IMG/VR virus record: IMGVR_UViG_3300046517_000405
Span: 1-42,099 of that record
DNA length: 42,099 nt
From: a virus
Reading direction: 5' to 3' (one strand)
This document shows positions 11,055-32,473 of this stretch, piece by piece. Numbering within the stretch: the stretch's first letter is position 1; each line of letters starts with the position of its first letter. A program made the translations under genes and the position numbers. The notes beneath the pieces are model-generated. The model had not been told where the DNA came from, did no database searches, and saw only the letters and a list, made by a program, of their open reading frames with translations.

Positions 11055-12598
11055 TAGGCGGTGCCAGCGCGCACCGCCCCGATGTGCTCGATCCACGGAG
11101 CGCCGTCGCCCCAGTAGGCGAAGACGCTCCGCTGGTTTGCCAGCAGCCGGTCGCCGAAGATCCGCTCGCTGGACTTCCCGCTCGGCCAGCGGTTCTTGAT
11201 CAGGTCCCGCCGGAACAGGGACGGGTTCGCCGTGAAGTGATCCCGCTGCGCGATGTAGCCGTCCCGCTGCTCGCGCCAGCCGTCGATGCTGGCGAGGACG
11301 GACCCCGCCTCCTGCTCCTTCGGGTAGTACGGCCCCCGGAGCAGGGCGACCTGTAGGACGTTCGGGTCGGCGTCGAGGAGCGCCATCATCGGCACGAGGT
11401 CCACGTCCCGGCTGTAGGTGAAGTCGTCCTCGATGCTGAAGACGTAGTCGCCGACGCAGTGCCGCTCCAGATAGCCCCACAGCGCCTGCATCGCCGCGAT
11501 GTAGCCCGAGTGCTGCCGGAGGCCGACGACGTAGAAGCCCGCCGCGCTGGCGATCTCGTGCAGTTCTGCATGGAACTCGTGGTCCCAGTCCGAGTACACG
11601 ACCTTCTGGGTCATCGGCCCGGTGACGTGCTCGTTGAACGAGGCGAGCGACCGGCGCAGGTACTCCTTCCGCTCGGGCCAGACGTCCGCCGTACCGCCGC
11701 TGCGCATGACCACCGTGACGGCAGGGGGCGGGCCGAACCGCTGCTCCTTCGCGCTCTGCTTCAGTTCCTCCAGCGTCGGCCACCAGTGCTGCCAGTCCGG
11801 CAGGCCGTACTTGCGGACGAGCGGCATCAGGCTCTGGTCGTCGCGCTTCAGGTTCTCCACGTCGCGGATGTTCTCGGCCTCGCTGGCGGGCAGGCCCGGG
11901 CGGTCGTGGAGGCCGTGGTCCCGGCGCAGCGCCACCATGTAGCGCCGACCGAGGCGGGCGTTCAGCGTGTACTCCTTCGTCGCCGACTGCCGACCGTTCG
12001 TCAGGCGGTCCGAGGAACGCGGGTGCCAGAGGTGGATCACGTCGCCCTCGGTCCGCTCGTGGCCGTACAGCCCGACGACGATGGACTGGAACGCCATGTC
12101 TTCGAAGCCCCAGCCTTCGAACCGCTCGTCCAGCCCGCCGAGATCGTCGAAGACCGGGCGCGGCACGACGATGAAGCAGGACCACGAGATCGGGTTCGTC
12201 CGCTCCGCCAGCAGGTCGATCTCGGCGGGGTCGATCTCCGGGCCGAAGTCGTGGTTGTCGGCGATGATCCGGGCCGTCTCCTCCTGCGCGATCCCGCGCC
12301 AGCGCCTGTGGCCCCACGTCACCTTGCCGGTGTCCTGCGCGAGCGCGATGGCGGCCCGCGCCTGCGACTGGCTGTACATCACGTCCGAGTCGATGATGAT
12401 CCCGAAGTCCCACTTGCCCGCCGCCGCGCTGGCGAGGTTGATCGCCTTCGCCCGGTTGAACGGTCGCGGCCCGTCGTCGTGGCCCTCGTAGATCGGGACG
12501 TCCGGCAGGATCTTCTCCCAGCGCGCCCGCGCGTAACGCCACAGCGCGTCGCGGTGCCCGCCGTCGTCACGGCGCGGGGCGAGGAAGACGGTTCTCAC
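11051..12598 (-). CDS. Two-domain GT-A glycosyltransferase
   Basis: 515 residues from GTG 12598, which overlaps the upstream stop as GTGA; codons before it are shadow. The N-terminal half looks like a GT2-type transferase: IIIDSDVMYS supplies a DxD-like metal site and ERFEGWGFEDMAF matches the GWGxED acceptor motif of galactosyl/GalNAc transferases. The C-terminal half looks like a second GT-A domain (VVMRSGG, VFSIEDDFTYSRD, ANPSLFRRDL). Two domains in one chain suggest successive sugar additions. It lies directly downstream of another GT-A gene and the capsid gene. Confidence 0.75.
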   Translation of the reverse strand: MRTVFLAPRRDDGGHRDALWRYARARWEKILPDVPIYEGHDDGPRPFNRAKAINLASAAAGKWDFGIIIDSDVMYSQSQARAAIALAQDTGKVTWGHRRWRGIAQEETARIIADNHDFGPEIDPAEIDLLAERTNPISWSCFIVVPRPVFDDLGGLDERFEGWGFEDMAFQSIVVGLYGHERTEGDVIHLWHPRSSDRLTNGRQSATKEYTLNARLGRRYMVALRRDHGLHDRPGLPASEAENIRDVENLKRDDQSLMPLVRKYGLPDWQHWWPTLEELKQSAKEQRFGPPPAVTVVMRSGGTADVWPERKEYLRRSLASFNEHVTGPMTQKVVYSDWDHEFHAELHEIASAAGFYVVGLRQHSGYIAAMQALWGYLERHCVGDYVFSIEDDFTYSRDVDLVPMMALLDADPNVLQVALLRGPYYPKEQEAGSVLASIDGWREQRDGYIAQRDHFTANPSLFRRDLIKNRWPSGKSSERIFGDRLLANQRSVFAYWGDGAPWIEHIGAVRAGTAY

Positions 12599-13302
12599 TG
12601 GTGCCCTCCCAGAGCCTGTAGGACGGTCGCTGCGTCGATGTCGATGCGGTTGGCGTACCAATCGTCAAACGCAGCCTTGTCGGCCTCCACCGTGGCTTGT
12701 GCGCGGTCGTAGCCCGCGTCGGTCGCCGCCTTGCCGACAGCCGGGTGCATATGCTCGATGACGAGGTCCGGCACGTAGTGCAGCGAGCCGATCCGCTTGC
12801 CCAGTTCGCGCCATGCGTCGTCGATGTACAGGTGGTTGCACGTCGGCAGCGCGTACCAGCCGAGCGCGTTGACGATCTCCGCGCTGATGAACGGGGCCGA
12901 CGGCAGGTGCGCGCCGTGGATCTTGTCGTCGCCGTAGGCGATGCCGGGCCGCGCCAGCGCCCGCTTCACCAGCCGGTCCCAGCCCTCCGTCCGGCACAGG
13001 TGGTCGTCGCCGAGGTTGCCGATGATCGCCGTCGGGTTCTCCCGGGCGATCCGCAGGGAGACGGTGTTCGTGGCCTTCACGAGGTTGCCCGTGTCGTCCG
13101 GCTGGAGCACGACGCGGCTGATCTCGGCCCGGTACCAGATGTCGCCGTTGCGGGCCGAGTAGCCCGCCAGCGTCGGGTCGTCGGCGTCGAGCGCGAGGAC
13201 GACGCTGGTGCCGACCAGCACGGCCCGCTTGCGCAGCGCCTCGGCTGCGTCGAGCGCCCGCTCGGGCCGCCCGCGTGACGGGATGACGGCGACGACTGAC
13301 AC
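12595..13302 (-). CDS. GT-A family glycosyltransferase
   Basis: 235 residues with a GTG start at 13302. The opening VVAVIPSRGRPERAL, the LALDADDP strand and IGNLGDDHLCRTEGW match the nucleotide-sugar and metal sites of GT2-like enzymes. The length suits a single catalytic domain. An out-of-frame ATG just upstream is not used. It is the first gene after the strong post-capsid hairpin, so it is probably expressed well below capsid level. Donor and acceptor unknown. Confidence 0.7.
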   Translation of the reverse strand: MSVVAVIPSRGRPERALDAAEALRKRAVLVGTSVVLALDADDPTLAGYSARNGDIWYRAEISRVVLQPDDTGNLVKATNTVSLRIARENPTAIIGNLGDDHLCRTEGWDRLVKRALARPGIAYGDDKIHGAHLPSAPFISAEIVNALGWYALPTCNHLYIDDAWRELGKRIGSLHYVPDLVIEHMHPAVGKAATDAGYDRAQATVEADKAAFDDWYANRIDIDAATVLQALGGHQ

Positions 13303-13376: not shown

Positions 13377-14723
13377 TTACGAGCCGAGATCCCAGTCCTG
13401 AAGGGTGACGACGCAGAACGCCGCCGGGAAGAAGATGGCGAGACCCAGCCGGGTCTCGGCGAGGACGGCGACGAGGTTGCGGACGAAGAAGTCGGAATGG
13501 CTGTCGCTCGTGAGGATGGTGACACCCTCCCGCTCGAAGACCGTTCCGCCCTGCTTGAACGCGCCCACGATGGCCGTGCCCGGATCGACCGCCTCGGACT
13601 CGACCCGGCGCATCCGCCAGATCGGGGCCGTGTCGGGCGTCGCAGGGCCGAGGACGCCGAACGGATCGCCCGCCCGGTAGCGCCCCTGCGAGTCCTTCAT
13701 CAGGTCGTATTCCTCGCTGTCCACCGGGTTCATCACCACGGCGTCGGCGTTCGCCCGCGCTGCGCCCGTCTTCACGAGCCGCTTCGCGGTGCGGATGCCG
13801 TCGAGGTTCGTGCCTGCCGCGAAGTGCGGGGTCAGGTCGAGGGTCTGGAGACCGCTCCGGTCGAGCAGACCGCTGATGTTCGGAGACGTCCCGTCGCCGT
13901 TCATCAGTTGGTCGTCGATCTCCAGATCCAGCATCAGCCGGAGTTGGTTGTCGATCAGCGACCGGGTCTGGCCGTAGTCGGCCAGTTGCTTGCGCGTCGC
14001 GGCCATCCACGTCGCGATGGTCTCGATGTTGTCGGTCCGGCGCTGCCAGCCGATGGACGACTGCGGCTTCCCACCGGTCGGGTTGCCGTCGATGGCGGCT
14101 TCCGAGACGGCGGCTGCCGCGTTGTCGAACGCGGTCTGGTAGGCGTACGACAACTGGTCGGACGTCGTGCTGTCGTTGCTGAACAGGTCGCGGACGACCG
14201 TCGGGGCCTGCGGCAGCGGCAGGATGCCCGGGAGGTACTGGGGGGTGATCAGCGCGGAACCGGCACCGGCCCGGTCGCCCGACGTCGCCGCCGTGCCCGA
14301 GATGATGTCGCTGGCCGCCTTGATCTGGGGGTTGAACGGGGTCGTCTTGAACGTCGCCCGGTCGCTGTTCAGGACGCCGCTGTCCGTGAGTTCCTTGTAC
14401 TCCTCGGACTCGACGAACTGCTGGCCGATGGACTTGCGGGTGAGGACGCCCCGGGGGTCGTCGATCTGGGTCCGCTGCCACGGGATGGGCCCGCCCCGGG
14501 CCTTCTCGTGGTAGAAGTCCAGCCGATCCTTCAGGGTCTCCATCTGCTCGCCGCGCTCTGCCGACTTCGTGTACTCGGCGTCGGCGGCGATGGCTTCGGC
14601 CATCTTCGCCTTGTAGCCGTCGAACTCGGCGTCACTGAGCGAATCGACGTCCTTACCCTCGACGAGAGCGGCTGCGTCCTTGAACAGGCCCGCCGCCTTC
14701 TCGCGCAGGTCGGTGTTCGCCAC
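13377..14723 (-). CDS. Major capsid protein, HK97 fold
   Basis: 448 residues, ATG at 14723. The first 110 residues or so are charged and helical (AAGLFKDAAALVEGKDVDSL, KDRLDFYHEKARG) and look like the cleavable delta/scaffold domain. The HK97 core follows with ALITPQYLPGILPLPQAPTV, QRRTDNIETIATWMAATRKQ, a long spine helix (DNQLRLMLDLEIDDQLMNG) and the terminal strand GLAIFFPAAFCVVTLQ. It follows the prohead protease gene by 12 bases, the usual order, and is followed by a strong hairpin. Confidence 0.93.
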   Translation of the reverse strand: MANTDLREKAAGLFKDAAALVEGKDVDSLSDAEFDGYKAKMAEAIAADAEYTKSAERGEQMETLKDRLDFYHEKARGGPIPWQRTQIDDPRGVLTRKSIGQQFVESEEYKELTDSGVLNSDRATFKTTPFNPQIKAASDIISGTAATSGDRAGAGSALITPQYLPGILPLPQAPTVVRDLFSNDSTTSDQLSYAYQTAFDNAAAAVSEAAIDGNPTGGKPQSSIGWQRRTDNIETIATWMAATRKQLADYGQTRSLIDNQLRLMLDLEIDDQLMNGDGTSPNISGLLDRSGLQTLDLTPHFAAGTNLDGIRTAKRLVKTGAARANADAVVMNPVDSEEYDLMKDSQGRYRAGDPFGVLGPATPDTAPIWRMRRVESEAVDPGTAIVGAFKQGGTVFEREGVTILTSDSHSDFFVRNLVAVLAETRLGLAIFFPAAFCVVTLQDWDLGS

Positions 14724-14735
14724 TGCGTGCTTCTC

Positions 14736-15539
14736 CTACTGCTGTGGTGTCAGGAGGCCGAGGCCGTAGCCCCGGGAGACGAGTTCGGCCCGCAGTTCCG
14801 CCTGAGCGGCGAGCAGTCGCGACTTGCCCGTCTGCGGCTCCTTCGGCGGGACCTCGGTCTCTGCGAGGAGCGCCGTCGTGTTCTCCACCAGCGACTGCAT
14901 CGTGGCGAGGAAGTCCTCCAGCCGCTTGCGGCGGTCTGAACTGATCTTCCTGCCCTCCTTCAGCCGGAGGTCGATGATCTCGGACTCCCGGACGTTCAGA
15001 TCCTTCGCTGCGGCCAGCACGCGGTCCGCCTGCTCCAGAAACGACCCGGCCAGCAGGTCGTCGTCCAGTCCCTTGATCGCGAGGGTTGCGGTTGACTTGC
15101 CCGCGCCCAGCAGGACGGGGCTGATCTCGTGGATGTCGAGCGCCTTCAGGCCGCGCCGTGCGCCCGGGTGCGACTTCGGCTTCGGTTCGAAGTCCGTCAC
15201 GTCGAAGCCGTACGACCACTGCTGCACGTCGCCCATCGCCTTGACGGTCTCGTAGGCGTTCGCGCCCTGCGTGGTCTTCAGGAAGAAGCCGCCCTTCGCC
15301 AGCGCCAGATCCCCGTCCTCGGACAGGAGCGCCTTGCCGGTCGGCAGGCGTGCGCCGCGCTCGGGCCATGACGTGTGGCCGTAGTCGCTGACCGGGACGA
15401 TGCGCCCCTTCGGGACCGCGCCCGGGAACGTCACGTCCTTGTCGTGGTCGATCTCGTTCAGCCGGGCGAAGGCGACGAGGAAGTCCCCGTCGTTCGTCAG
15501 GTCGAAGTCAACGAGGTCGAACGCCTTCACCTCGGGCAT
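14736..15539 (-). CDS. HK97-type prohead protease (S78)
   Basis: 267 residues, ATG at 15539. Catalytic candidates are His55 in SDYGHTSWPERG, Ser109 in WSYGFDV and the acidic residue of HEISPVLLGAG (138-147), the standard triad regions of herpes/HK97-like maturation proteases. Residues after about 190 are charged and helical and probably act as scaffold. It should trim the capsid delta domain inside the prohead. It lies between the + cassette 2 and the capsid gene. Confidence 0.9.
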   Translation of the reverse strand: MPEVKAFDLVDFDLTNDGDFLVAFARLNEIDHDKDVTFPGAVPKGRIVPVSDYGHTSWPERGARLPTGKALLSEDGDLALAKGGFFLKTTQGANAYETVKAMGDVQQWSYGFDVTDFEPKPKSHPGARRGLKALDIHEISPVLLGAGKSTATLAIKGLDDDLLAGSFLEQADRVLAAAKDLNVRESEIIDLRLKEGRKISSDRRKRLEDFLATMQSLVENTTALLAETEVPPKEPQTGKSRLLAAQAELRAELVSRGYGLGLLTPQQ

Positions 15540-15642: not shown

Positions 15643-15671
15643 TTGACAGGTTGCCGGGCCCGCAGTATGTT
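15643..15671 (+). promoter_or_regulatory. Sigma70-type promoter of + cassette 2
   Basis: TTGACA at 15643-15648, 17-base spacer, TATGTT at 15666-15671, preceded by the shared CTAGGGGC. A leader of about 65 bases follows with two AGGAGGCA elements, one at once after the promoter without a start codon nearby and one at 15734 that serves the gene at 15745. Confidence 0.85.
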
Positions 15672-15744: not shown

Positions 15745-15933
15745 ATGGACAACCGGCTGAACCACTGGACCTACCGTCGGACGATCTACGCGACCGACGA
15801 GATCGAGGCCCACTGGCTGATCAAGCGGACCGCCGAGCGGGAAGTCCCCGGCGCGACCGTCACGATCCTCTCAATCCGCAAGACCCCGACGGGCCGGTTC
15901 TCGGCCCTCGTGAAGATGGAGCGACACGCATGA
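15745..15933 (+). CDS. Small basic protein of + cassette 2
   Basis: 62 residues from ATG 15745 with ACAGGAGGCA just upstream. It opens NRLNHWTYRRTIYATDEIEA and ends in a strand-like KTPTGRFSALVKMERHA. Its stop overlaps the next start (ATGA). Function not recognised. Confidence 0.75.
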   Translation: MDNRLNHWTYRRTIYATDEIEAHWLIKRTAEREVPGATVTILSIRKTPTGRFSALVKMERHA

Positions 15934-16322
15934 AGCGCCAGAGTTCACGCACCCACTGGACCCACACGTCGAGCGAGGACGTCCAGACGCAGGTCGAGAT
16001 CGGCTGGAGCGACACGGAGGCCGGGGTCGTGTTCATCGGCACCCGCCTGATCTCCGGCGTCCCGACGTACCGCGAGTACCGGGGCACGGTGCGCATCGAG
16101 CGCGTCCTGACCGAGGGGCGCGGCGAACGGCTGATCGAGAAGATCCACCGCGTGACCGTCTCGTCCCTGCTCGGCGACATCGTCGGTCAGGACCGCACGA
16201 TCATCGGCGCGGTGCAGGACTACGCGAGCAAGGTGCTTCGCGAGGAGCAGGCGCAGGACCGGCGCGAGTTCAACCGGCGGGCGCACGAGTTCGACGTCAC
16301 CGTGAAGGGTGTTACGGTGTAG
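15930..16322 (+). CDS. Unrecognised protein of + cassette 2
   Basis: 130 residues, ATG 15930 overlapping the preceding TGA. A beta-rich front (TQVEIGWSDTEAGVVFIGTR, PTYREYRGTVRIERVL) leads to a long helix (QDYASKVLREEQAQDRREFN) and a terminal strand. No family recognised and no catalytic motif seen. Middle gene of a four-gene + cassette between the protease and MuF genes. Confidence 0.8.
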   Translation: MKRQSSRTHWTHTSSEDVQTQVEIGWSDTEAGVVFIGTRLISGVPTYREYRGTVRIERVLTEGRGERLIEKIHRVTVSSLLGDIVGQDRTIIGAVQDYASKVLREEQAQDRREFNRRAHEFDVTVKGVTV

Positions 16323-16325
16323 CCG

Positions 16326-16499
16326 ATGCCTGAGACACCGGACGGCGGCTGGATCATGGACGATCCGCCGCCGCCTGACTTCACACCGCCGACCGACGAG
16401 GAGGAGCGCAAGCGCCTCCTCGCTTCGGGCTTCACCGAGGCCGAGGTGGACGACCTGTTCGCCGCGCGCCGGGCCCGTCCGAAGGCCACGTTCGCGTGA
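16326..16499 (+). CDS. Short Pro/acid-rich protein
   Basis: 57 residues from ATG 16326, three bases after the previous stop. It has a run of prolines (DDPPPPDFTPP) and then a charged helix (EEERKRLLASGFTEAEVDDL) ending in basic residues. Composition and GTGA coupling to the next gene (16496) support it as real. Function not recognised. Confidence 0.65.
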   Translation: MPETPDGGWIMDDPPPPDFTPPTDEEERKRLLASGFTEAEVDDLFAARRARPKATFA

Positions 16500-16720
16500 G
16501 GCTGCGCATCCTCGACACGAGGGATGCTGAACTGGGGTGGGTCGATCTCACGGATGGCCGTGTGACGTCACAGGGCTGGGGCGACGAGGCCCGGCGCATC
16601 CTCGTGGTGAAGCCCGGCGTTCCCGACATCCGCCTCACTGAGAACGACGGAGAGGCGTGGCTGCGCGGGTTGCAGGCCGAGTTCCGCTCGGGCTTCGTCC
16701 GGGCCGTGCTGGAGCCCTAG
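16496..16720 (+). CDS. Last gene of + cassette 2
   Basis: 74 residues, GTG 16496 overlapping the upstream TGA (GTGA). A compact alpha/beta product (LRILDTRDAELGWVDLTDG, ENDGEAWLRGLQAEF). The TAG stop shares a CTAG palindrome at 16717-16720 with the stop of the convergent MuF gene, so the two genes end on the same four bases. Function not recognised. Confidence 0.75.
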   Translation: MRLRILDTRDAELGWVDLTDGRVTSQGWGDEARRILVVKPGVPDIRLTENDGEAWLRGLQAEFRSGFVRAVLEP

Positions 16721-19389
16721 GGCGCGAGCAGCGCGTTGCGCCAGAGCGGGGTCCCGCTGCCGTAGGTCCCGAAGTCCGATCCCGATAGCGTCCGGTTCTG
16801 GTCGAGCATGAACCGGACGCGGTCGAACATATCGGTGATCTCGCCGCCCTTCAGCCCCACGTCCTTCAGCGCCTTCGTGACCTCCGCCTTCTGCGACAGG
16901 AGCCGCCGCAGCGCGTCGGACTCGGACCCGGTCAGTTCCTGACGGGCCAGCGCGTGGCGGACGTCCATCGCGCCGTAGTTGCCGTGGATCGGCAGCCCCT
17001 TGTCGATCAACTTGCTCGGGAACGACAGGCCGTGGTCGATGGCGACCAGATCGTTCTTCGGCGTGGTCAGCCAGTTGCCGATGTGGCGGTCCGTGTTGCC
17101 GATGACGCTGTCGAAGAAGGCCATCGCGTCCGACTGCGACTCGGCGTAGGCGGTCAGCGCGTTGCCCGACGAACTCGGCACGAACTGGACGACGATGGCG
17201 TCCTGACCGAAGACGTCGCGGCGGACGACGTTCGGCATATTGACCGGACGCCCGAGCGCGTCGTTGATCACCTGCGCCGCCATCTCCCGCTCGCTCTCGG
17301 CGTGGACCGGGATGCCGTTGCGGAGTTTCGACCCGTAGGTGCCCTCGGTGGGCTTGATCACGACGTCGATGCCGTCGATCTGGCCGAGGTACGTCGTGTT
17401 GATCCCGGTGCTCAGATCCTTGCCGCGCACGACGTCCTGTGACGTGGAGAGGCGAGTCCGGGTCGGGTCGGTGCCGACCGACGCCTGCTGCTGCGCGGCC
17501 TGCTGTGCGGCCTCGCGCTGGCGGATCGCCTCGGCCTCCGCCGCCCGGTTGCGCGCCGCCGCCTCCTCCAGCGACCGCAACTGCTGCTGGAGCCGCGACA
17601 GGCTGAAGTCGTGGGCCGGTCGCCCGAGCACGCGGGTCCGCTCGGCCCGCTGCTCGTCGAGGATCGCCCGAGCCGCCGCGTCGATGCGCGACTCGTAGAT
17701 GCCGCGCCCGGCGTTGCCGACGACGGTGTCGATGGCATCCTGAAGCGCCCGCTGCGTGACGTAGGTGGACGCCTCCTTCAGGACCGCGTCCTCCAGTTCG
17801 CTGAACTGGATCGGGGTGATCTTGCCCTGAAGGACGGCTTCGCGGAGCGCGCTGATCTCGGTGCTGACCTCGCCCCGGACCTCGCGCTGGAGGCGGGCGT
17901 AGTTGCGGCTCATCGCCTCGTACACGTCGCGCCCATCGACGCTGGACAGGCGCTCCGCGTCGAAGGCGTAGTCGCCCGCCTTGCCGACGATCCGCCCTTC
18001 CCTGATGCCACGGTTGACGAACAGGCCGATGTCCTGCGGGCTGAATGACGTCAGGTGGACCAGATCCTGCTGGAACGCGCCGGGGTGGTTGTGGACCAGC
18101 GTGCTGCCACGCATCCGGCGGAGTTCCTCGGGGCTGAACTCGACGGAGCCCGCGACCTCCTGCGCGCCGACCCGGCCTGCGCCCGTGCCGGTCTTGTTGA
18201 CGACGACGTTGCCCCAGTCGTCCACCGCGAAGCCGACCTCGTGGTCCGGGATGTCGCGGATCTGCGCGTTCAGGCGGGCGATCTCGGCCTCGCGCCGGGC
18301 GATGTCCTTCGGCACGACCTGCTGGAGGCGGGCGATCTCGGCCTGCGCCTCGGCGGAGCGCCCGGCGGCGGCGTTCATCCGCTCCTCGGCGGCGTTGATC
18401 CGCAACTGGTACGCCTGCATATCCGCCGGGATGTGGCGCGTGCCCTGAAGGGTGTCGTACTCCAGCCGGGCCGCCGTCAGTTCGTCGTCGGCTGCGATCA
18501 GCGCGCTCTGTGCCGCGTCCAGATCGGCGGCGGTCGGGATCTGGACCACCGGGGCCGGTGGCAGGGCCGTCGGCGCTCTCGGTGGCTCCTGCGGCCTCAC
18601 AGGGGCTTGTGCGCGCGGCCCCTTCGGCTCCAGACCTGCCGCGACCGGGGCGAAGGCGCGCAGGCAGTTCGGGTGGGCGATGGGATGCGTCATCGCCTCG
18701 TCGAGGGTGACGATCTTGCCCTGCGCCCGGTCCGGGTCGTTGTGCGCCAGCCAGCCGCAGTTCGGGCCGTCCTGCACCTCGACCATGCGGACCAGCCCGC
18801 TCTGCTGGTAGCCGGTGACGGCCCCGAGGTTGAAGGCCGTCGCCGTCTCGGTCCGGGCGATGGTGTACGAGCGCGACCGGGTCAGATCCTCCAGCCCGGC
18901 GTAGCCCCGCAACTGCTCGCGCATCCGCTTCGCGATCACGCTCGGGTGGACGCCGTCGTCGATGCCCTGTCGGATCGTCGCGTCGAGCGCCTTGCGCGTC
19001 TCCTCGGTGATCCCCTTGACCTTCTCGCCGATGACGCCACGCAGGAGGCGGTCGTTCAGGTCGAAGGCCGCGACCGTGCCGAGGTTGACCTGAGACGCGG
19101 CGAGGCCCAGCCCGGCCACGTTGACGTACTCCTGCTGGACGATCCGCTGCATCGCGTGCTGGAACTCGTTGTACGCGGGCTCGTCGTAGGTGAGCGGGTA
19201 CTCCAGCGCCTTGATCTCGGGGCCGTGGACGGCGGACCGCTCCAGCGCGAGGAACGCCTCGCTGACGCGCTTCGCGAACCGCTCGATGACCGCGTCGAGG
19301 ACGCGCTGCTGCTGGCCGGTGACGACCCCCGCGACGCGCTTGCGGTGGGTCTCAGCGACCGCCGACAGGGACGCGGGTGCCACCGCCAT
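16717..19389 (-). CDS. MuF protein with JAMM-like and kinase-like domains
   Basis: 890 residues from ATG 19389 (GGGAGG 8 bases upstream), overlapping the portal gene by 38 bases. Residues 1-250 are the phage head morphogenesis MuF domain: SYTIARTETATAFNLG at 174-189 and HPNCLRAFAP at 239-248. Residues 255-285 are a Pro-rich linker and 288-380 a coiled coil. Residues 384-453 hold a JAMM/MPN-like metal site: Glu384, HNHP at 433-436 and SFSPQD ending at Asp453, with a longer loop than RadC. Residues 598-635 are a second coiled coil. Residues 660-870 resemble HipA/PI3-4 kinases: Lys679 in DVVIKP, a hinge near 730-739, catalytic GNTDRHIGN at 764-772 and the metal-binding IDHG at 784-787. MuF proteins with C-terminal enzymes are known as polyvalent proteins or toxins packed in the head. 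Protease and kinase roles are inferred from motifs. Confidence 0.8.
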   Translation of the reverse strand: MAVAPASLSAVAETHRKRVAGVVTGQQQRVLDAVIERFAKRVSEAFLALERSAVHGPEIKALEYPLTYDEPAYNEFQHAMQRIVQQEYVNVAGLGLAASQVNLGTVAAFDLNDRLLRGVIGEKVKGITEETRKALDATIRQGIDDGVHPSVIAKRMREQLRGYAGLEDLTRSRSYTIARTETATAFNLGAVTGYQQSGLVRMVEVQDGPNCGWLAHNDPDRAQGKIVTLDEAMTHPIAHPNCLRAFAPVAAGLEPKGPRAQAPVRPQEPPRAPTALPPAPVVQIPTAADLDAAQSALIAADDELTAARLEYDTLQGTRHIPADMQAYQLRINAAEERMNAAAGRSAEAQAEIARLQQVVPKDIARREAEIARLNAQIRDIPDHEVGFAVDDWGNVVVNKTGTGAGRVGAQEVAGSVEFSPEELRRMRGSTLVHNHPGAFQQDLVHLTSFSPQDIGLFVNRGIREGRIVGKAGDYAFDAERLSSVDGRDVYEAMSRNYARLQREVRGEVSTEISALREAVLQGKITPIQFSELEDAVLKEASTYVTQRALQDAIDTVVGNAGRGIYESRIDAAARAILDEQRAERTRVLGRPAHDFSLSRLQQQLRSLEEAAARNRAAEAEAIRQREAAQQAAQQQASVGTDPTRTRLSTSQDVVRGKDLSTGINTTYLGQIDGIDVVIKPTEGTYGSKLRNGIPVHAESEREMAAQVINDALGRPVNMPNVVRRDVFGQDAIVVQFVPSSSGNALTAYAESQSDAMAFFDSVIGNTDRHIGNWLTTPKNDLVAIDHGLSFPSKLIDKGLPIHGNYGAMDVRHALARQELTGSESDALRRLLSQKAEVTKALKDVGLKGGEITDMFDRVRFMLDQNRTLSGSDFGTYGSGTPLWRNALLAP

Positions 19390-20833
19390 TCCCGTTCCCT
19401 CCCGACGGTGCCGGGACGGCGTTCGGCAGCGCCAGCGGGTTGCCCGGGATCTTGCCCGCCGCATCCGGCAGCGCGGCGTCGCCCGGGTTCGCGAGGTCGC
19501 CCGTCAGCGGGATGGTGCGGGCGCTCTCCACCGGGACCTTGCTCTGGTCCTCGGCCTCTGGCGTCACGACGAGGTTGACCGGGATGTAGTAGACGTCGTC
19601 GAAGCCGTCCTCGTCGGCCTTCTCGCCGACCATCTCCTTGAACCGGGACCGGGTGATGCCGCCGTGGTTCAGCGCGTTCACGCCGCGCTCCCACAACTTC
19701 GTCTGGTCCTCCTGAAGGACGCGGACCTCGCTGACGTCGAAGTCGAGCACGAAGCCGCTGACGTCAGAGACGAACTCCGACAGCCCCTGACGCTTCAGCG
19801 GTGAGGCCAGATCGTTGTGCAGCGGGATCACGCCCTCCTCGTAGGCCGCCTCGCGCGCCTCGCCGTAGTTGGCGAAGGTGCTGCGGTCGAGGCCAGCCCC
19901 GAAGGACGACACGATGGCCGGGACGCCGAAGATGCCCGAGACGCGCTCCTCCGGGATCTTGCGCAGGTCGCGCAGGGTCATCTGCTGCGGGTTGAACGAC
20001 AGGACGTGGACGTCGGTCGGGGCGGTCAGGACCATCGCGTCGCCCCGGTTGTCGCCGCTGAACGTCTGCTTGAACGCCGCCTTGACCGCCGCCGGGTCGA
20101 GGATCTGGCCCCGCCCTGACATCACGCCGCCGACGGTGCTCGCGTTCGGCGCGATCACCACGCCCGGCACGCCGAGGTTCGACAGCAGCGCCGCCGTGAA
20201 GGACGACGCCTCCTCGTCCGTGAAGACCTCCCGGACCAGCGACTGGAAGGCGCAGAAGCCGAGCCGTGGGTTCTGCGGGTCGATGCCGTCGCGCCAGTGG
20301 ATGATGTCGGTGGTCTCGATGCGCTGCGGCGTCCCGTCGATGTTGTACTCCCAGTACGACAGGTACTCGCTGCCGTCGTCCGGGTAGCGCGCCTTCATCG
20401 ACCACGACGGAGCCCACCACGACTCGATCCAGCGCCCGGAGCCGTTGCGCAACTTGATCACGAAGGCGTTGCCGGTCGTCTTGTAGTCGGCGATCAGCGC
20501 CTTCATCAGGACGCGCCCGTCGTAGTACTCGTTCGGCTGGTCCCAGATCGTCAGGAGCGCGCCCGGGCCCGACGACGAGGCGTCGATCTCGGTCATCCCG
20601 CCGTCGGCCTGCTTCGTCCTGATGCGCAGCGGCGCGTCCGGGGTGTTCCTCTGGAGCCACGAGATCGGGGCGACGACGACACTCGACTCCAGCCCCTGCC
20701 CGACGACGCGGTTCCGGTAGCGGGCCGCGTTGCTGTACGAGCGTCCGTACCACGGGTTGCCGCCCCACGTCACCCGACCGAACCGGATCTGGAGCGCCTT
20801 GACCGACGCGCCCATGCGCTGGAAGACGTTCAC
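19352..20833 (-). CDS. Portal protein (HK97 family)
   Basis: 493 residues from GTG 20833. Portal landmarks are visible: a basic N-terminus, VVVAPISWLQRNTPDAPLRI, LLTIWDQPNEYYDG, ALIADYKTTGNAFVIKLR, IIHWRDGIDPQNPRLGF, and the stem/crown region RKIPEERVSGIFGVPAIV. The Gly/Asn/Pro-rich C-terminus overlaps the MuF start. It forms the dodecameric packaging vertex. It lies 49 bases after TerL. Confidence 0.93.
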   Translation of the reverse strand: MNVFQRMGASVKALQIRFGRVTWGGNPWYGRSYSNAARYRNRVVGQGLESSVVVAPISWLQRNTPDAPLRIRTKQADGGMTEIDASSSGPGALLTIWDQPNEYYDGRVLMKALIADYKTTGNAFVIKLRNGSGRWIESWWAPSWSMKARYPDDGSEYLSYWEYNIDGTPQRIETTDIIHWRDGIDPQNPRLGFCAFQSLVREVFTDEEASSFTAALLSNLGVPGVVIAPNASTVGGVMSGRGQILDPAAVKAAFKQTFSGDNRGDAMVLTAPTDVHVLSFNPQQMTLRDLRKIPEERVSGIFGVPAIVSSFGAGLDRSTFANYGEAREAAYEEGVIPLHNDLASPLKRQGLSEFVSDVSGFVLDFDVSEVRVLQEDQTKLWERGVNALNHGGITRSRFKEMVGEKADEDGFDDVYYIPVNLVVTPEAEDQSKVPVESARTIPLTGDLANPGDAALPDAAGKIPGNPLALPNAVPAPSGGNGNGGGTRVPVGGR

Positions 20834-20882: not shown

Positions 20883-22289
20883 TCACGCCGCCGTCCACAC
20901 CATCTTCGGCGGATCGTAGAACGCCAGCAGCAGCGCGTCGGCGTCGTCCGGGCTCCGTCCCAGCCGCTCGCGGGTCTCCTCCTTCGGCTCGACCTTCGTC
21001 CGCCCAGCGGGGTCGGGCTTGTACTTCGGCGCGATCAACTGGCCCAGCGTCTCGTCGTCGAGATCCTTCAGGTCCCAGCCCGCGTCCTGCGTGAGTTCAC
21101 GGCCCATCCACCAGACCTCGTCGCGGAGGCGGGGGAAGCGCGTGCCGTCCCACGACCGCTCGCCCACGTTCACGGCCACGATGTCGGTCTCCGGCGGCAG
21201 CACGCCCGACTCGACGTGGTCCTTCAGCCAGCCGACGACGCCCCAGCCGATGCCGATGGTGTCCACCTTGATCGACGTGGCCCCGGTGGACAGGGCGACC
21301 TCCGTGATCTTGCCGACGACCTTGCCCGCGTCGGCGCTGTGGTCCCGCACGACCTCCGCCGGGACCCGCCCGCGCCGCACCCGGATGCTGGTGAAGTCGC
21401 CGCCCGCCCCGACGTCCACGCCCAGTTGGATCACCGGGTTCACCTCCGGCAGCCAGTCGTCGAGCATCTGGTTGCGGCGGACCATCGGCAGCGGGATCAC
21501 GGTGTCGGTGGCGTACTCGGGGAACTCGCCCAGCGCCTTGCTGATGAACAGGGGACTGTCCTCGCCCCACATCTTGCGGCGCTCCTCGACCCACGTCGGG
21601 CTGATCAGGTCGTGCAGGAGATCCGGCGGGACGGCCTCGTTCGTCCATGCCGGGGTGTCCGCGTAGCCGATCTGGATCACGTTCCAGCCGGAGCCCGGCG
21701 AGCAGATCGTCTTGAAGTGCGTCGCCGGGTCGTCCGGGTTGCCGATGGCGAGCACGCGGGCGTACTCGTTCGTCGCCAGCGTCTCCGCCGCGTCGTAGAG
21801 CGCCTTCGGGACGCCGCCAGCCTCGTCGATGATGACCAGCACGTACCGCTGGTGGATGCCCTGAAACGCCTGCGTGTTGTACTCGGCGGGCTTCCGACCG
21901 AAGGCCACGATCTCCGTGCCGATCCACCACTCCAACTGGTTCAGCCGACCGACCAGCCTGCCCTTCTTGTGGGCCCGGTTGATCTCACGCCACAGGATCG
22001 CCTTGACCTGCGCGCCCGTCGGCGCTGTCGTGACCACGAACGCCTCGCCGGGCTGGTGCGCGTCGATCCACCATGACGCCAGACGGGCCGCCGTGTACGA
22101 CTTGCCGCTGTCGTGGCAGGACTTGACCGCCGTGTGCCGGTTGTCCCGGACGCTCTCCATGATCTCGACCTGCTTCGACCACGGGAACTCGTTCAGGCGG
22201 TCGCGGGTCCAGCCAGCCGGGTCACGTCGCCAGTCGTAGGGCGGGTCGAGCCGGTCGGCGGCGTAGATCCACGGCGAAGCAAGAGCCAC
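20883..22289 (-). CDS. terL: Terminase large subunit
   Basis: 468 residues from GTG 22289. The ATPase domain has Walker A SCHDSGKS (57-64) and Walker B VLVIIDEAGG (150-159). The RNase H-like nuclease domain shows the metal-binding acidic residues in LGVDVGAGGD (Asp292), KVDTIGIG (Asp343) and SPDDADALLL (448 region). It drives and cuts DNA during packaging. The 350 bases upstream contain no leftward gene, only the divergent gene 22313-22678, so TerL is separated from its small-subunit candidate. Confidence 0.95.
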   Translation of the reverse strand: MALASPWIYAADRLDPPYDWRRDPAGWTRDRLNEFPWSKQVEIMESVRDNRHTAVKSCHDSGKSYTAARLASWWIDAHQPGEAFVVTTAPTGAQVKAILWREINRAHKKGRLVGRLNQLEWWIGTEIVAFGRKPAEYNTQAFQGIHQRYVLVIIDEAGGVPKALYDAAETLATNEYARVLAIGNPDDPATHFKTICSPGSGWNVIQIGYADTPAWTNEAVPPDLLHDLISPTWVEERRKMWGEDSPLFISKALGEFPEYATDTVIPLPMVRRNQMLDDWLPEVNPVIQLGVDVGAGGDFTSIRVRRGRVPAEVVRDHSADAGKVVGKITEVALSTGATSIKVDTIGIGWGVVGWLKDHVESGVLPPETDIVAVNVGERSWDGTRFPRLRDEVWWMGRELTQDAGWDLKDLDDETLGQLIAPKYKPDPAGRTKVEPKEETRERLGRSPDDADALLLAFYDPPKMVWTAA

Positions 22290-28815: not shown

Positions 28816-29169
28816 TCACTCTACCACCGGCCAGTGCTCGGGGTACAGGGCGCGCAGTACGTCCCTCTCCCGCTGGCGGCGGGCCTTCGTGTCGATCCGC
28901 CACGCGCTGCCCCTGTGATGCCACGGGCAGACGGTGATCAGGTGCGCCTCGTCGTCGAGCCGGGCGCCCCGGTCGTCGCGGACGTGGTCCAGTTCCATCT
29001 TGAAGACGTTGTCCCAGCGGATCAGCAGGCCGTGCTCGTCCCGGCAGGAGTCGGTCGCGGCGTCGGTGCGGAACCACATCCCGCTCGTCGCCACGCAGCC
29101 CCCATCCCGGGCGAGGACGGTCTGGCGCAGGCGCGGCCAGCCGTCCTTCCGCCGGGTGATCAACTCCAC
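28816..29169 (-). CDS. HNH endonuclease
   Basis: 117 residues from GTG 29169, overlapping the recT end by 10 bases. The HNH core is visible as MELDHVRDDRGARL (the DH pair) followed by LITVCPWHHRGSAW, with a cysteine at GGCVATSG that may add structure. Length and motif match small free-standing phage HNH proteins. Here it is next to recombination genes rather than terminase, so a role in DNA processing or homing is open. Confidence 0.8.
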   Translation of the reverse strand: MELITRRKDGWPRLRQTVLARDGGCVATSGMWFRTDAATDSCRDEHGLLIRWDNVFKMELDHVRDDRGARLDDEAHLITVCPWHHRGSAWRIDTKARRQRERDVLRALYPEHWPVVE

Positions 29170-30155
29170 GTCTGGCCCGTGGCGTCACGGTGGTTGCCGT
29201 CGTGGCCGAGGGTCTGGATGCACGCCCCGGGCTCGTAGCCGTCGGGCGTCAGCGCGCCGCAGCCTTCGCTGTCAGCCGCAGCGGCCTCCACGGCGCTCCC
29301 AGAGCCACGGAGAGGCGCTTCAGGCTCGTCGGCGTCTCCTCGTGCCAGCGCGTAGGCCGCCGCCGTTGCACGCGGTCCTGTGGCGGGCGGGATCTCCGTC
29401 GCCGTGCCCTCGATGATGTCGGCCTGCTCGTCCGCCGTGACGGCGTGCGCGACCTGCGGCATCGTCTCCAGCGGGAGGCGCTTCAGGAGCCGTCGGAGGA
29501 CCGTCTTGCGGGCCATCTCGCCAGCGAAGTCGTCCCACGGGCTGTCCTTGCCCTGCGCCACGGCCTGCGAGCGGCGGCGGACGACGTCCACGTCGGCCCA
29601 CGCCATCCACTCGATGACCTTCTCGCCGGTCGCCATCTCGACCCAGCCGTAGACGCCCCGGTAGTCGCCCCGGTCGCCGAGCAGTTCGCCATCGGACGAC
29701 TTCTCGCCGAACAGGAAGGGCCGGTGGATGATCTGGGGGTCCGTGCCGAGGAGCAGGTCGAACTCGTCGGCCATGTAGACGACCTGCGCGTCCGTCCGCC
29801 GGATCTGGCCGCTGTTGCGGAGCAGTTTCAGCAGCCCCCGGTAGCCGGGCCGGAAGGTGGCGACACCCTTGTACGGGATGATCCAGCCCTCGCCCAGCAG
29901 GCCGGTCGGCGACAGGTTCATCGCCGCGCTCTCCCGGATCGCCTCGATGATGCTGATGACCGAGCACTCCTTGAGCACCCGCTGGTTCTGCGCCAGCGCG
30001 TGGAGCGCCACCGTCTTCCAGCGGTCGAAGTTCTCCGCCCCGAGGAGCGGCCCGAACTGGTCCACGCGCTGGTCCATCTCGCGGACGACCAGCGCCAGCG
30101 TCTCCCGCTCCTTGCCGCCCTGTGGCGTCACGGGCGGCGGTCCTGCCCTGTTCAC
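29160..30155 (-). CDS. recT: RecT family single-strand annealing protein
   Basis: 331 residues from GTG 30155, overlapping the exonuclease stop (GTGA). The RecT core spans about 20-230: RWKTVALHALAQNQRVLKEC, SIIEAIRESAAMNLSPTGLL, YRGLLKLLRNSGQIRRTDAQ, then KTVLRRLLKRLPLETM. The last 45 residues form a Cys/His motif (CGAL...GACIQTLGHDGNHRD) seen at the end of proteins in some high-GC phages. It pairs with the upstream exonuclease as a RecE/RecT recombination module. Confidence 0.9.
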   Translation of the reverse strand: MNRAGPPPVTPQGGKERETLALVVREMDQRVDQFGPLLGAENFDRWKTVALHALAQNQRVLKECSVISIIEAIRESAAMNLSPTGLLGEGWIIPYKGVATFRPGYRGLLKLLRNSGQIRRTDAQVVYMADEFDLLLGTDPQIIHRPFLFGEKSSDGELLGDRGDYRGVYGWVEMATGEKVIEWMAWADVDVVRRRSQAVAQGKDSPWDDFAGEMARKTVLRRLLKRLPLETMPQVAHAVTADEQADIIEGTATEIPPATGPRATAAAYALARGDADEPEAPLRGSGSAVEAAAADSEGCGALTPDGYEPGACIQTLGHDGNHRDATGQTWS

Positions 30156-31174
30156 TGCTTGAACCTCACGTCAATCCGCCGGTAGCCCGGCTCTGTGCTG
30201 GTGTACATGGACTCGGCGGCGTCCAGCGCCATCTGCGCCGACGCCAGAGACCGGACGGCCTCGTCGTCATCGCCCGGGGCGACGTGCTCCACGACGTCGC
30301 CGAGCGCGGCCCGGTAGACCTCGGCGACCAACTGCCACGCGACCTTCACGCGGTCCTTCGTCTGCTTCCACGTCACCTTGCCCCACGACCCGGTGATGCC
30401 TGCGGCGTCTCCGATCAGGTCTTCGACCCGGTGCTCCAGCGTGGCGACGACGGCCTCCTGCGCCTTCAACTTCGCCCGCTCGTCCCGGAGCCGGAGGACG
30501 ACCAGTTCGCGCTCCGGCGGCAGGGTCTTCAGGGTCTCGTCGTGCTCGGGCCAGCGGGACCGGACGACCCGCCGGGAGAACTCGTCGCCCTCCAGCGGCG
30601 GAGGATCTCGGCGCTCGACCCGCTGCCAGAACTCGGCAGCCGCCTGACGCCACGTCGAGAGGAACGCCTCGTCCCGCTGGATCGGGTACGTCCTGAACTC
30701 CCGGAAGCCGAACAGGACCGCGAGGTGACAGACCTTCGCGCTGGTCACGAGCATCTCGTGCTGCGCCTGAACCCAGTAGTGGACCGGGACGTCGTCGGTG
30801 CCGTCGTCGCCCCAGCCCCGGGAGTCGTTCGCCGTCTTGCACTCGACCAGCACGTCCGGGCTGCCGACGACGCGGTAGTCCAGATGGCAGACCAGCCACG
30901 GGTAGGCCGGGTGCCGGTGGTGCTGGTTGTCGGCCCGGACGCGCAGGCCGGTCCGGGCGAAGAACAGTTCGGCGACGACGTCTTCCAGCCGAAGGCCGAG
31001 CCACTGCGGGAGAGTCTGCCCCGAGACCTCCTCCTCCGCGATGGGCTCGACCTTCGACTGGTAGACGCTCAGGGGCGTCGCCCACGGCGACAGCCCCAGC
31101 ACCCCGGCGGCGTCAGTTGCTCCGATCCCGGACTGGCGCTCCTTCAGGAACGCCGCGCGGTCAGCCGTCAGCAT
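30152..31174 (-). CDS. YqaJ/RecE-like exonuclease
   Basis: 340 residues from ATG 31174. The YqaJ signature SGIGATDAAGVLGLSPWATP is near the front, then WLGLRLEDVVAELF, and the PD-(D/E)xK centre HLDYRVVGSPDVLVECKTAN with Asp and Glu-x-Lys. A central QAQHEMLV helix follows, and the C-terminal part is a coiled coil. It should resect double-strand ends for RecT. The start lies inside the end of a 34-residue membrane gene; no good ribosome site is seen, so re-initiation is likely. Confidence 0.88.
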   Translation of the reverse strand: MLTADRAAFLKERQSGIGATDAAGVLGLSPWATPLSVYQSKVEPIAEEEVSGQTLPQWLGLRLEDVVAELFFARTGLRVRADNQHHRHPAYPWLVCHLDYRVVGSPDVLVECKTANDSRGWGDDGTDDVPVHYWVQAQHEMLVTSAKVCHLAVLFGFREFRTYPIQRDEAFLSTWRQAAAEFWQRVERRDPPPLEGDEFSRRVVRSRWPEHDETLKTLPPERELVVLRLRDERAKLKAQEAVVATLEHRVEDLIGDAAGITGSWGKVTWKQTKDRVKVAWQLVAEVYRAALGDVVEHVAPGDDDEAVRSLASAQMALDAAESMYTSTEPGYRRIDVRFKQ

Positions 31175-31272
31175 GACACGGACCACGTGTAGCAGTCCGG
31201 GATCGACGTCCACGCGATCAGCACCATGCCGACGGCGATCCCGACCAGCAGGTACCAGAGAGCCTTGCGCAT
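31168..31272 (-). CDS. 34-residue membrane peptide
   Basis: ATG 31272 overlaps the upstream stop (TGATG). The peptide starts MRKALWYLLVGIAVGM, has one membrane helix, and ends CYTWSVSC with two cysteines. Its end overlaps the exonuclease start by seven bases. Function unknown. Confidence 0.6.
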   Translation of the reverse strand: MRKALWYLLVGIAVGMVLIAWTSIPDCYTWSVSC

Positions 31273-31466
31273 CAGCGCCTCCTCGCGATCAGTCGCCCCA
31301 TCCGGGCGATCACCTTGCGCTTGTCCGAGATCGGCATCCCCCGGAGGACGACGAGGCAGGCCGTCGCGTAGTCGTCCACCTCGTCAGCCGTCAGCGGGGA
31401 AGGCTTCGACTCCTGCGCCTGAAGGCGCGTGAGGTCGGCCAGCGTGACCGTCGGCTTGTCGTTCAT
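31272..31466 (-). CDS. 64-residue helical protein
   Basis: ATG 31466 overlaps the upstream TGA. It reads MNDKPTVTLADLTRLQAQE and later DEVDDYATACLVVLRGMPIS followed by a basic end. All helical by composition. Coupled on both sides. Function not recognised. Confidence 0.7.
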   Translation of the reverse strand: MNDKPTVTLADLTRLQAQESKPSPLTADEVDDYATACLVVLRGMPISDKRKVIARMGRLIARRR

Positions 31467-31819
31467 CGCTCGCTCGCGGATCGCGTCTTGACGTGCGCCT
31501 TGCACACGTTCATCCGCCTGCCGTCTTGGTTCGTGATGACGAACTTCGCCCGGTGCTGGCACTGCCACGACGAGACCCGCTCGCCGTAGACGGTGGCCTG
31601 ACAGTTGATCGCCGGGCCGGTGTACGGCACCGCCGCCTCGACCGCCGCCGCCTGACGCGCCTTGCGCTCCGCCTCGACCGCCTCCTGCGCCCGGCGGTTG
31701 GCCGACTGCCAGTCCCACGTCACGACGTAGTTCTGGTCGGCCAGCCATGCGTCGATGCGGGCGAGGCCCATCTGCGAGACCCCCTCGGCTCGCAGGATCT
31801 CCGCGAACTCCTTGAACAC
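31463..31819 (-). CDS. Cys/His protein of the early operon
   Basis: 118 residues from GTG 31819, preceded by ACAGGAGGCA. The front is helical (EFAEILRAEGVSQMGLARID), the middle Ala/Arg-rich, and the end has NCQATVYGERVSSWQCQHRA with a final VCKAHVKT, a plausible C-x(n)-CxH...CxxH zinc module. Function not recognised. Confidence 0.75.
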   Translation of the reverse strand: MFKEFAEILRAEGVSQMGLARIDAWLADQNYVVTWDWQSANRRAQEAVEAERKARQAAAVEAAVPYTGPAINCQATVYGERVSSWQCQHRAKFVITNQDGRRMNVCKAHVKTRSASER

Positions 31820-31939
31820 TCAGTTGCCTCCTGTCGGGATCGGCGCGTGGTCCGCGCCCTTGCTGGTGTGCTGCCAGACGAACTTGCGCGGGTGGTACCG
31901 GACCTGCTTGCCGCAGGTCCGGCACGTCGCCGTTCGCAT
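31820..31939 (-). CDS. 39-residue zinc finger
   Basis: ATG 31939 overlaps the upstream stop (TGATG). CRTCGKQVRYHPRKFVWQH is a compact CxxC...H...H finger, followed by TSKGADHAPIPTGGN. The stop at 31820 is next to the following GTG. Likely nucleic acid or protein binding. Confidence 0.7.
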   Translation of the reverse strand: MRTATCRTCGKQVRYHPRKFVWQHTSKGADHAPIPTGGN

Positions 31940-32115
31940 CAGCCGGGGAACTTGGCGAGGACGGCCTCGGTCTTCGCGATCAGGGTCTTCAGGACGGCCT
32001 CGCCGTCGCTGCTCAGGACGCCCTCCCGCTCGCCGAGAGCCGCCAGCGCGACCCGGAGGATCGCGGCCTCCTCCTTCGTGACGATGATCTGGCGCAGGAC
32101 TAGAACCTTGCCCAT
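31939..32115 (-). CDS. 58-residue helical protein
   Basis: ATG 32115 is preceded by ACAGGAGGCA. It reads MGKVLVLRQIIVTKEEAAIL and ends in an amphipathic helix (KTLIAKTEAVLAKFPG). Its start directly follows the TAG of the leader gene. Function not recognised. Confidence 0.7.
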   Translation of the reverse strand: MGKVLVLRQIIVTKEEAAILRVALAALGEREGVLSSDGEAVLKTLIAKTEAVLAKFPG

Positions 32116-32319
32116 CTATGCCTCCTGTGCCCGTGCGGGCTTGTTGCCGGTCTGGTAGGTCCAGACCGTGAAGTCCTCCTTGCCGTAGCCGTGGAAGACC
32201 TTGTCCCCGCGCTGGAGACAGTCCTGACAGACCCGGCTCCCGAACCCGTCGCGCTCGATGGCGTAGACGAGGGAGACGAGGCTGCGGCAGTGGTCGCATC
32301 GGCGTCGGCGTGACTTCAT
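32116..32319 (-). CDS. Zinc-ribbon protein, first leftward gene
   Basis: 67 residues from ATG 32319, which lies six bases after the -10 of the leftward promoter, so the message is probably leaderless. CDHCRSLVSLVYAIERDG followed by CQDCLQRGDKV forms a four-Cys zinc ribbon with a basic KSRRRR head. Being first from the control region, it could be a regulator, but only the zinc motif is seen. Confidence 0.75.
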   Translation of the reverse strand: MKSRRRRCDHCRSLVSLVYAIERDGFGSRVCQDCLQRGDKVFHGYGKEDFTVWTYQTGNKPARAQEA

Positions 32320-32325
32320 GTGAGC

Positions 32326-32355
32326 ACCATACTGCACCCGGCTGGAAGTTGTCAA
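32326..32355 (-). promoter_or_regulatory. Leftward early promoter
   Basis: Minus strand TTGACA (32355-32350), 18-base spacer, TATGGT (32331-32326), then six bases to ATG 32319. Divergent from the + promoter at 32401, with a perfect dyad between them. Confidence 0.8.
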
Positions 32356-32368
32356 GGTACCAGAGCAC

Positions 32369-32387
32369 TGTCTCACCTGATGAGACA
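32369..32387. promoter_or_regulatory. Operator-like perfect dyad
   Basis: TGTCTCA-N5-TGAGACA: perfect 7-base arms separated by CCTGA, lying between the -35 boxes of the two divergent early promoters (14 bases from each). The size and position fit a dimeric repressor or activator site controlling both directions. Confidence 0.65.
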
Positions 32388-32400
32388 CCCGTCCGGGGGC

Positions 32401-32429
32401 TTGACACCCGTGGCGTCACCGGCTAGGGT
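32401..32429 (+). promoter_or_regulatory. Rightward early promoter
   Basis: TTGACA at 32401-32406, 17-base spacer, TAGGGT at 32424-32429, with the shared GGGGGC upstream. A leader of roughly 38 bases carries ACAGGAGGC before ATG 32474. Confidence 0.85.
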
Positions 32430-32473
32430 ACCTGCATACCCGGCGTTCGACCGGGAGCAACAGGAGGCGCGAC

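Follow-up and report, generated by a model that had tools for sequence, protein, structure and literature searches.

The 42,099-base virus record IMGVR_UViG_3300046517_000405 (68.7% guanine plus cytosine, GC; the whole of this stretch is called the window below) includes a gene for an 890-aa protein that combines a MuF-type head domain, a JAMM-like domain and a kinase domain, as well as a small gene that meets it from the other strand and encodes a 74-aa protein, here called the kinase partner (Table 1). The large open reading frame (ORF) starts with the ATG at 19389, is uninterrupted and has the GC bias across codon positions that marks a real gene. Head genes on the minus strand are ordered terminase, portal, MuF-kinase gene, prohead protease and major capsid protein, with a plus-strand cluster of small genes, including the partner gene, between the MuF-kinase gene and the protease gene.

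A sequence-only reading of this DNA had proposed that MuF, JAMM-like and kinase domains lie in a single chain. Pfam, PHROGs, alignments and predicted folds agree on this, and the residues that had been named (E384, HNHP, D453, K679, D767 and D785) are correctly numbered. The partner gene, which is the one most relevant to function, lies outside the coordinates covered by that reading and was not mentioned in it.

Table 1. Position and strand of the features identified in the window, with supporting evidence
Feature	Position	Strand	Evidence
MuF - JAMM-like - kinase gene, 890 aa	16717..19389	-	open ORF, Pfam, PHROGs, codon-position GC bias
MuF core, residues 137-248	18646..18981	-	PF04233 and phrog_37388
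JAMM-like domain, residues 363-489 (E384, H433, H435, S450, D453)	17923..18303	-	invariant motif, fold model
PI4K-II/HipA-like kinase, residues 649-890 (K679, D767, D785)	16720..17445	-	Pfam, alignment, fold model
Kinase-partner gene, 74 aa, candidate inhibitor	16496..16720	+	partner HMM built without the window
Small gene of plus-strand cluster, 57 aa	16326..16499	+	
Small gene of plus-strand cluster, 130 aa, no detected relative	15930..16322	+	
Small gene of plus-strand cluster	15745..15933	+	codon-position GC bias
Promoter-like site TTGACA-17-TATGTT ahead of plus-strand cluster	15643..15671	+	weak
Terminase large subunit	20883..22289	-	phrog_2, 4.3e-34
Portal protein	19352..20833	-	PF04860, 5.4e-36
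Prohead protease	14736..15539	-	PF04586, 4.5e-8
Major capsid protein	13377..14723	-	PF05065, 7e-32

Domains of the MuF-kinase protein

The C-terminal kinase was recognized by PI3_PI4_kinase (PF00454) at residues 744-796 (E 2.3e-9; 38 bits against a cut-off of 27.1) and, under the cut-off, by the NCBIfam model SCO1664 at residues 748-792 (1.1e-8). D767 and D785 were invariant and K679 was at least 90% conserved in an alignment of 36 kinases, and the best PDB match of a 36-sequence kinase profile was PI4K2A (3.4e-14), followed by PI4K2B, FAM20 and VPS34. The predicted structure of the domain (predicted local distance difference test, pLDDT, 81.9; predicted template modelling score, pTM, 0.83) was closest to the type II phosphatidylinositol 4-kinase (PI4K-II) PI4KII-beta (Z 18.4, 217 residues aligned, root mean square deviation, rmsd, 3.2), followed by CtkA (Z 14.2, 200 aligned, rmsd 3.5), Fam20C (Z 11.6, 193 aligned, rmsd 3.5) and HipA (Z 10.7, 202 aligned, rmsd 3.6). 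The score, the K/D/D residues and the modelled fold place the domain in the PI3/PI4-kinase superfamily, as had been expected from the sequence, with type II PI4-kinases closest and HipA related. Assignment to HipA proper was rejected, as HipA_2 reached 11.4 bits against 27 and HipA_C was absent at E<=1 (PF20613, PF07804), and a chance motif was ruled out by the homologues and folds. The fold matches do not decide between a lipid and a protein substrate.

The MuF part gave clear PHROG matches, to phrog_37388 at residues 180-248 (1.4e-17) and to phrog_2468 (head morphogenesis) at residues 61-200 (2.9e-14), while Phage_Mu_F (PF04233) matched residues 137-242 with an E-value of 8e-4, under the Pfam cut-off. 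The P0001 query gave nothing useful against PDB sequences. A predicted MuF domain encoded in a head-gene cluster and a C-terminal enzymatic domain whose catalytic set is intact are both features of MuF polymorphic toxins.

Kinases of this kind recur on phage head proteins. The pattern GNTDRHxGN was found in at least 80 viral stretches, 77 with a kinase ORF (L014, L045 and L062 were the stretches among the 80 without one), from which 51 distinct kinase proteins (230 aa or longer) were retained and 46 scanned against Pfam. The five outside the individual scan were L022, L039, L043, L074 and L087, and L022 and L043 carry MuF in the same ORF. MuF was detected in 19 of the 36 long kinase proteins from metagenomic phages (14 above the cut-off) and a portal family in four (three above it); neither was found by Pfam in the 10 shorter or partial proteins. 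Counted by record, 25 of the 30 searched had a MuF match (18 over the cut-off). The best two matches in a viral structure library were 'head morphogenesis' proteins, and a PI3/4-kinase, a portal protein (fourth), an HHTV-1 protein and a mycobacteriophage ADP-ribosyltransferase came next. Related kinases were also found in a mycobacterial prophage protein annotated as 'minor capsid and ADP-ribosyltransferase' (E 2.4e-10) and in gp16 of HSTV-2 (E 8e-19), encoded within the head and tail gene region of that virus. This recurrence of the MuF fusion in many phage contigs supports the idea of a MuF-borne kinase that could travel in the head. Among 53 bacterial genome loci retrieved with the kinase profile, one was a MuF-kinase (L118). 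A high-GC variant of the kinase pattern returned six loci, all previously found, and neither the kinase region nor the JAMM region was productive as a single-sequence query in viral contigs.

Two side observations concern these fusions. In HSTV-2, an archaeal virus, gp16 (L171:10647-12339) appears by eye to join a neck-protein-like N-terminus to the kinase. Intein or HINT-like matches were seen in L037, L051 and L086, the first two of which have a MuF match that is split in two.

The middle domain carries the E, HxHP and SxxD residues characteristic of JAMM/JAB metallopeptidases, and alignments of 3, 6 and 19 sequences showed no variation at E384, H433, N434, H435, P436, S450 and D453. The loop before SxxD is longer here than in the classical JAMM motif. 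This part of the protein had no Pfam match, and a JAMM profile produced chance-level matches only against PDB sequences. For the predicted structure (pLDDT 78, pTM 0.68), the best six Foldseek rows were BRCC36 and five RadC chains, with weak E-values (0.04-0.09), and the rows that followed were deaminases, which have a related fold. Most VIA rows covered the C-terminal helices and three of the 50 spanned model residues 1-135, namely BubCD (Z 7.3, 110 aligned, rmsd 5.2; the matched BubCD domain was not identified) and PfJAMM1 twice (Z 6.9, 103 aligned, rmsd 3.4; Z 6.8, 101 aligned, rmsd 3.5), although Z values of this size can also arise by chance. A JAB fold is probable, and the domain may have peptidase activity. 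The JAMM assignment made earlier stands as regards the motif, which is complete and invariant, and the best-ranked folds, while the fold matches themselves are weak.

JAMM-like homologues are present in phage records. The pattern HNHPRGW was found in 22 viral stretches, 18 of which were ORFs of more than 200 aa; six of the ten of these that were scanned had a MuF match at E<=0.1 (four above the cut-off), and none had a Pfam match above the cut-off over the JAMM part. In L094-L115 the JAMM-like family, with HNHPxGW...SFSxxD, forms the C-terminal end of phage head proteins, several of them with MuF, and has no Pfam match over a cut-off. JAB enzymes play a role in host defence systems that add ubiquitin-like tags, and the JAMM-like domain could be the main effector, a deconjugase that strips such tags from phage proteins, with the kinase secondary. 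We regard this as highly doubtful: the motif is complete, BubCD and PfJAMM1 match the model and phage head proteins repeatedly carry the domain, but the fold support is weak (E 0.04, Z about 7). The domain also terminates MuF proteins that have no kinase, and only in the window were it and the kinase found in one ORF among 169 records, which were picked by motif and are not a survey (L002 is the window itself). It is best read as an additional module that MuF proteins carry independently of the kinase. The proposal that the protease processes its own chain was not upheld, given this occurrence without a kinase, other MuF-kinase ORFs compared that have no JAMM-like domain, and no evidence of cleavage.

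A small gene family beside the kinase

Behind the MuF-kinase ORFs, reading the DNA downstream, lies a small ORF, about 80-90 aa long, that often overlaps them by 4 nt. It belongs to a family of approximately 75-90 aa with a consensus that ends FLxALxxxYxGxYxRA. A hidden Markov model (HMM) of the family was applied to all ORFs of at least 40 aa in the collected loci (23,043 ORFs, 172 sources) and matched 50 (34 of them from outside the seed set, counting duplicates), every one in a locus that also has a kinase; the reversed ORF set gave none at E<10. Four rounds increased this to 58 partner ORFs, 57 of them no more than 400 nt from a kinase ORF and the other (L072) 1.4 kb away, and one ORF then appeared in the reversed-set control, at E 0.12. 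In most relatives the partner is directly behind the kinase and on the same strand. When 37 partners were compared with Pfam, eight families each matched one of the 37 (best E 0.01), and the best PDB chain for the partner profile had an E-value of 0.46.

The partner in the window is convergent with the kinase gene, their ends overlapping by 4 nt; the other 57 partners all share the strand of their kinase. With the HMM built without the window it was found at E 2.7e-4 among all ORFs, and it was the best of the 547 ORFs in the window (E 6.5e-6; runner-up 0.76). Its score was reached by none of 20,000 shuffles (19,172 were reported and the remainder were too low to list). No relatives of it or of the 130-aa product were found in a phage collection.

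The partner was beside 25 of the 29 MuF-kinase ORFs (duplicates counted) and absent in L024, L036, L043 and L070. In the JAMM-like loci without a kinase ORF (L088-L115), none of 3693 ORFs matched it at E<100, and the possibility that it is a MuF-linked protein was rejected on this absence. Seven of eight whole genomes chosen for the kinase had a partner match; six of these had just one, located at the kinase, and the seventh had another elsewhere, with no kinase near (L173). When the partner was sought first, in one actinobacterial order, it was found at 13 places in nine of 298 genomes (centre genome included), with a kinase close at eight places (a tandem pair counted twice; one kinase interrupted by a stop) and none within about 1.5 kb at five. 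In G302, G317 and G231, which have the partner, the only kinase lies far away from it. A wider sample had the partner in two of 396 genomes, one already known; in the second no kinase was seen, but the contig begins about 1 kb before the partner.

Some actinobacterial partners accompany very large ORFs. In Crossiella (L122) a 2204-aa ORF with an open 5' end terminates in the kinase, and the partner follows 3 nt behind. An open frame of 2846 aa in Actinophytocola (L126:1-8538) has two PI4K-like stretches and a C-terminal EndoU match; here the partner match follows the first kinase stretch, in a different reading frame but still within the large one, which leaves the gene borders ambiguous. No partner was recognized by the HMM at a third giant actinobacterial frame (L151). 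By analogy, the giant frames with a partner resemble toxin-immunity layouts. Separately, two partners were seen near one kinase in L181/L185 and in L077, as in stacked immunity genes.

The linkage between kinase and partner is observed, and on this basis the adjacent gene is a candidate immunity gene. The tight linkage would equally fit an activator, adaptor or substrate of the kinase, and the small protein HipS has been termed an allosteric modulator (part of PMC10627512). We consider such a role distinctly unlikely, as partners occur at five of 13 places without a close kinase, two may stand near a single kinase and the one in the window is on a separate strand. Partners found alone fit an inhibitor, as orphan immunity genes would.

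Readings of the kinase and its partner

The reading we prefer, and to which we give an even chance, is that of a capsid-carried kinase effector with a cognate, immunity-like inhibitor, in which activity, delivery, target and inhibition are all inferred. The 890-aa protein would be a MuF-type minor head protein with its C-terminal PI4K-II/HipA-like kinase used as an effector. It would be made together with the other head proteins, and MuF would position the kinase in the head, near the portal. At infection the protein, or its C-terminal part, would enter the new host with the DNA, where the kinase would phosphorylate a host target. The 74-aa partner would be its cognate inhibitor and hold the kinase off in the virion-producing cell, presumably staying behind when the kinase enters; on the opposite strand in the window, its gene may use its own promoter. 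To cover all cases, the partner would block the kinase in the producer cell and, in some phages, also in the particle.

Several observations weigh against this reading, and confidence in it is limited because the linkage of kinase and partner is not strict. Most searched loci had been fetched for the kinase, so that the distances and the partner-first sample are the only measures unaffected by that choice, and the 16 HMM seeds, all downstream ORFs from outside the window, were chosen by eye. Besides the window (one of one), the partner was recognized at 34 of 61 viral kinase ORFs, four others lacking room for it, and unrecognized at 23 with room; in several of these a similar-sized ORF that the HMM does not recognize is in the partner position. 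Among actinobacterial kinase ORFs it was present at seven of 11, and two of the four without it are good kinase matches (E 1e-36). In other genomes it was found at two of 33 (30 without, one lacking room) and in the named phage records at none of four; the HMM detected no partner behind HSTV-2 gp16, prophiFSQJ01-1 gp54 or the Mx1 kinase. All eight kinases at E<=1e-25 in ten partner-chosen genomes adjoin a partner, a result favoured by the choice of genomes and by a cut-off set post hoc. Partner genes occur alone and kinases occur without a recognized partner, and one-way dependence is not established. The stronger statement that every kinase is accompanied by the partner was dropped because of the counter-examples in the viral, actinobacterial, other and phage sets. 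The promoter-like site in the window is a weak match (one found, 0.2 expected in shuffles).

The portal fusions count on the same side. A kinase borne by the portal should remain in the shell, which suggests that some of these kinases cannot exit the capsid, and in three contigs with a portal-kinase (L033, L053 and L016) the next open frame, which bears MuF, also contains the partner, so that there the partner would itself be a head protein. These arrangements, together with the related kinase of HSTV-2 gp16 amid head and tail genes, would fit a role in the particle or its assembly, where the kinase phosphorylates head, scaffold or packaging proteins or its binding to the partner docks MuF to the portal, and no effector is delivered. 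Such a role appears unlikely, as the same pair is found on actinobacterial chromosomes and beside a giant ORF that is not phage-like, most MuF proteins need no such kinase and the partner is found alone.

The effector-inhibitor reading can be extended, more tentatively and as a possibility we lean away from, to a mobile kinase-inhibitor module. In phages, a PI4K-II-like cassette with its guard would then be attached to MuF and portal proteins, and an archaeal virus has a relative encoded amid its head and tail genes; in actinobacteria the cassette would occupy chromosomal loci and giant toxin-like ORFs. Some guards would be part of the next head protein and keep the kinase blocked inside the virion until the DNA is ejected, and in the window a JAMM-like enzyme would share the chain.

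Visual comparison alone suggests a likeness between the partner and the end of gp17, the product of the 76-aa gene behind HSTV-2 gp16 (3.7 bits).

Known systems and surrounding genes

The closest known kinds of system are MuF toxins with adjacent immunity genes and polyvalent proteins. The MuF toxins Bxa, an ADP-ribosyltransferase, and Apk2, a (p)ppApp synthetase, are found in temperate phages and, like the window protein, combine MuF with an enzyme at the C-terminus and have a small neighbouring gene within the head region (parts of PMC11699363 and PMC5576092), the adjacent genes of both being immunity genes (PMC11699363, in part). They differ in that the enzyme here is a PI4K-II/HipA-like kinase, and the partner has no convincing Pfam match and is on the opposite strand in the window. 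The terms 'kinase', 'HipA' and 'PI3' are absent from the main text of PMC5576092. In polyvalent proteins of phages and conjugative elements, MuF or portal domains are fused to PBECR, 2H or RelA/SpoT domains, and MuF occurs with zeta-toxin-like kinases (PMC5512222, in part). Their kinases differ from this one in belonging to the Ser/Thr/Tyr kinase superfamily without the C-terminal subdomain (same source), and HipA is absent from the main text of that paper.

Among kinase-inhibitor pairs, HipT and HipS of HipBST are the closest known, likewise pairing a HipA-like kinase with a small separate protein (PMC10627512 and PMC6581861, both in part). However, hipS is upstream of hipT (PMC6581861, in part), whereas the partner here is mostly downstream. 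A HipS-like protein should be homologous to N-subdomain 1 of HipA; no Pfam model of the HipA N-terminus matched any of 37 partners at E<=0.1, and HipB was not searched for. The closest solved folds are those of type II PI4-kinases and CtkA, yet these have 13-18% identity to the window kinase. Gut phages encode HipA-family kinases between portal and capsid genes (PMC8008677, in part). No MuF- or portal-fused PI3/4-kinase was found in literature titles and abstracts, a search that left subscription journals and preprints mostly outside its scope, nor was a description of the partner family found, though text searches cannot target such a family.

If the preferred reading is right, the locus bears on the open question of the role of head-carried phage enzymes at entry. 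The predicted kinase class and the matching small gene make up a testable effector-inhibitor pair, one that links phage heads with actinobacterial chromosomal loci, and the partner family could be used as a search key for further effectors of this type.

The host is probably an actinobacterium, judging from the relatives of the terminase, which among the matches listed had 44% identity to a gut record, approximately 41% to Streptomyces phages and 38% to Arthrobacter phages. Elsewhere in the window, a glycosyltransferase-like gene (12595-13302; phrog_14945, 1.4e-39) adjoins the capsid gene, and genes for RecT, a YqaJ-type recombinase and a DUF932 protein are located at 29160-33424.

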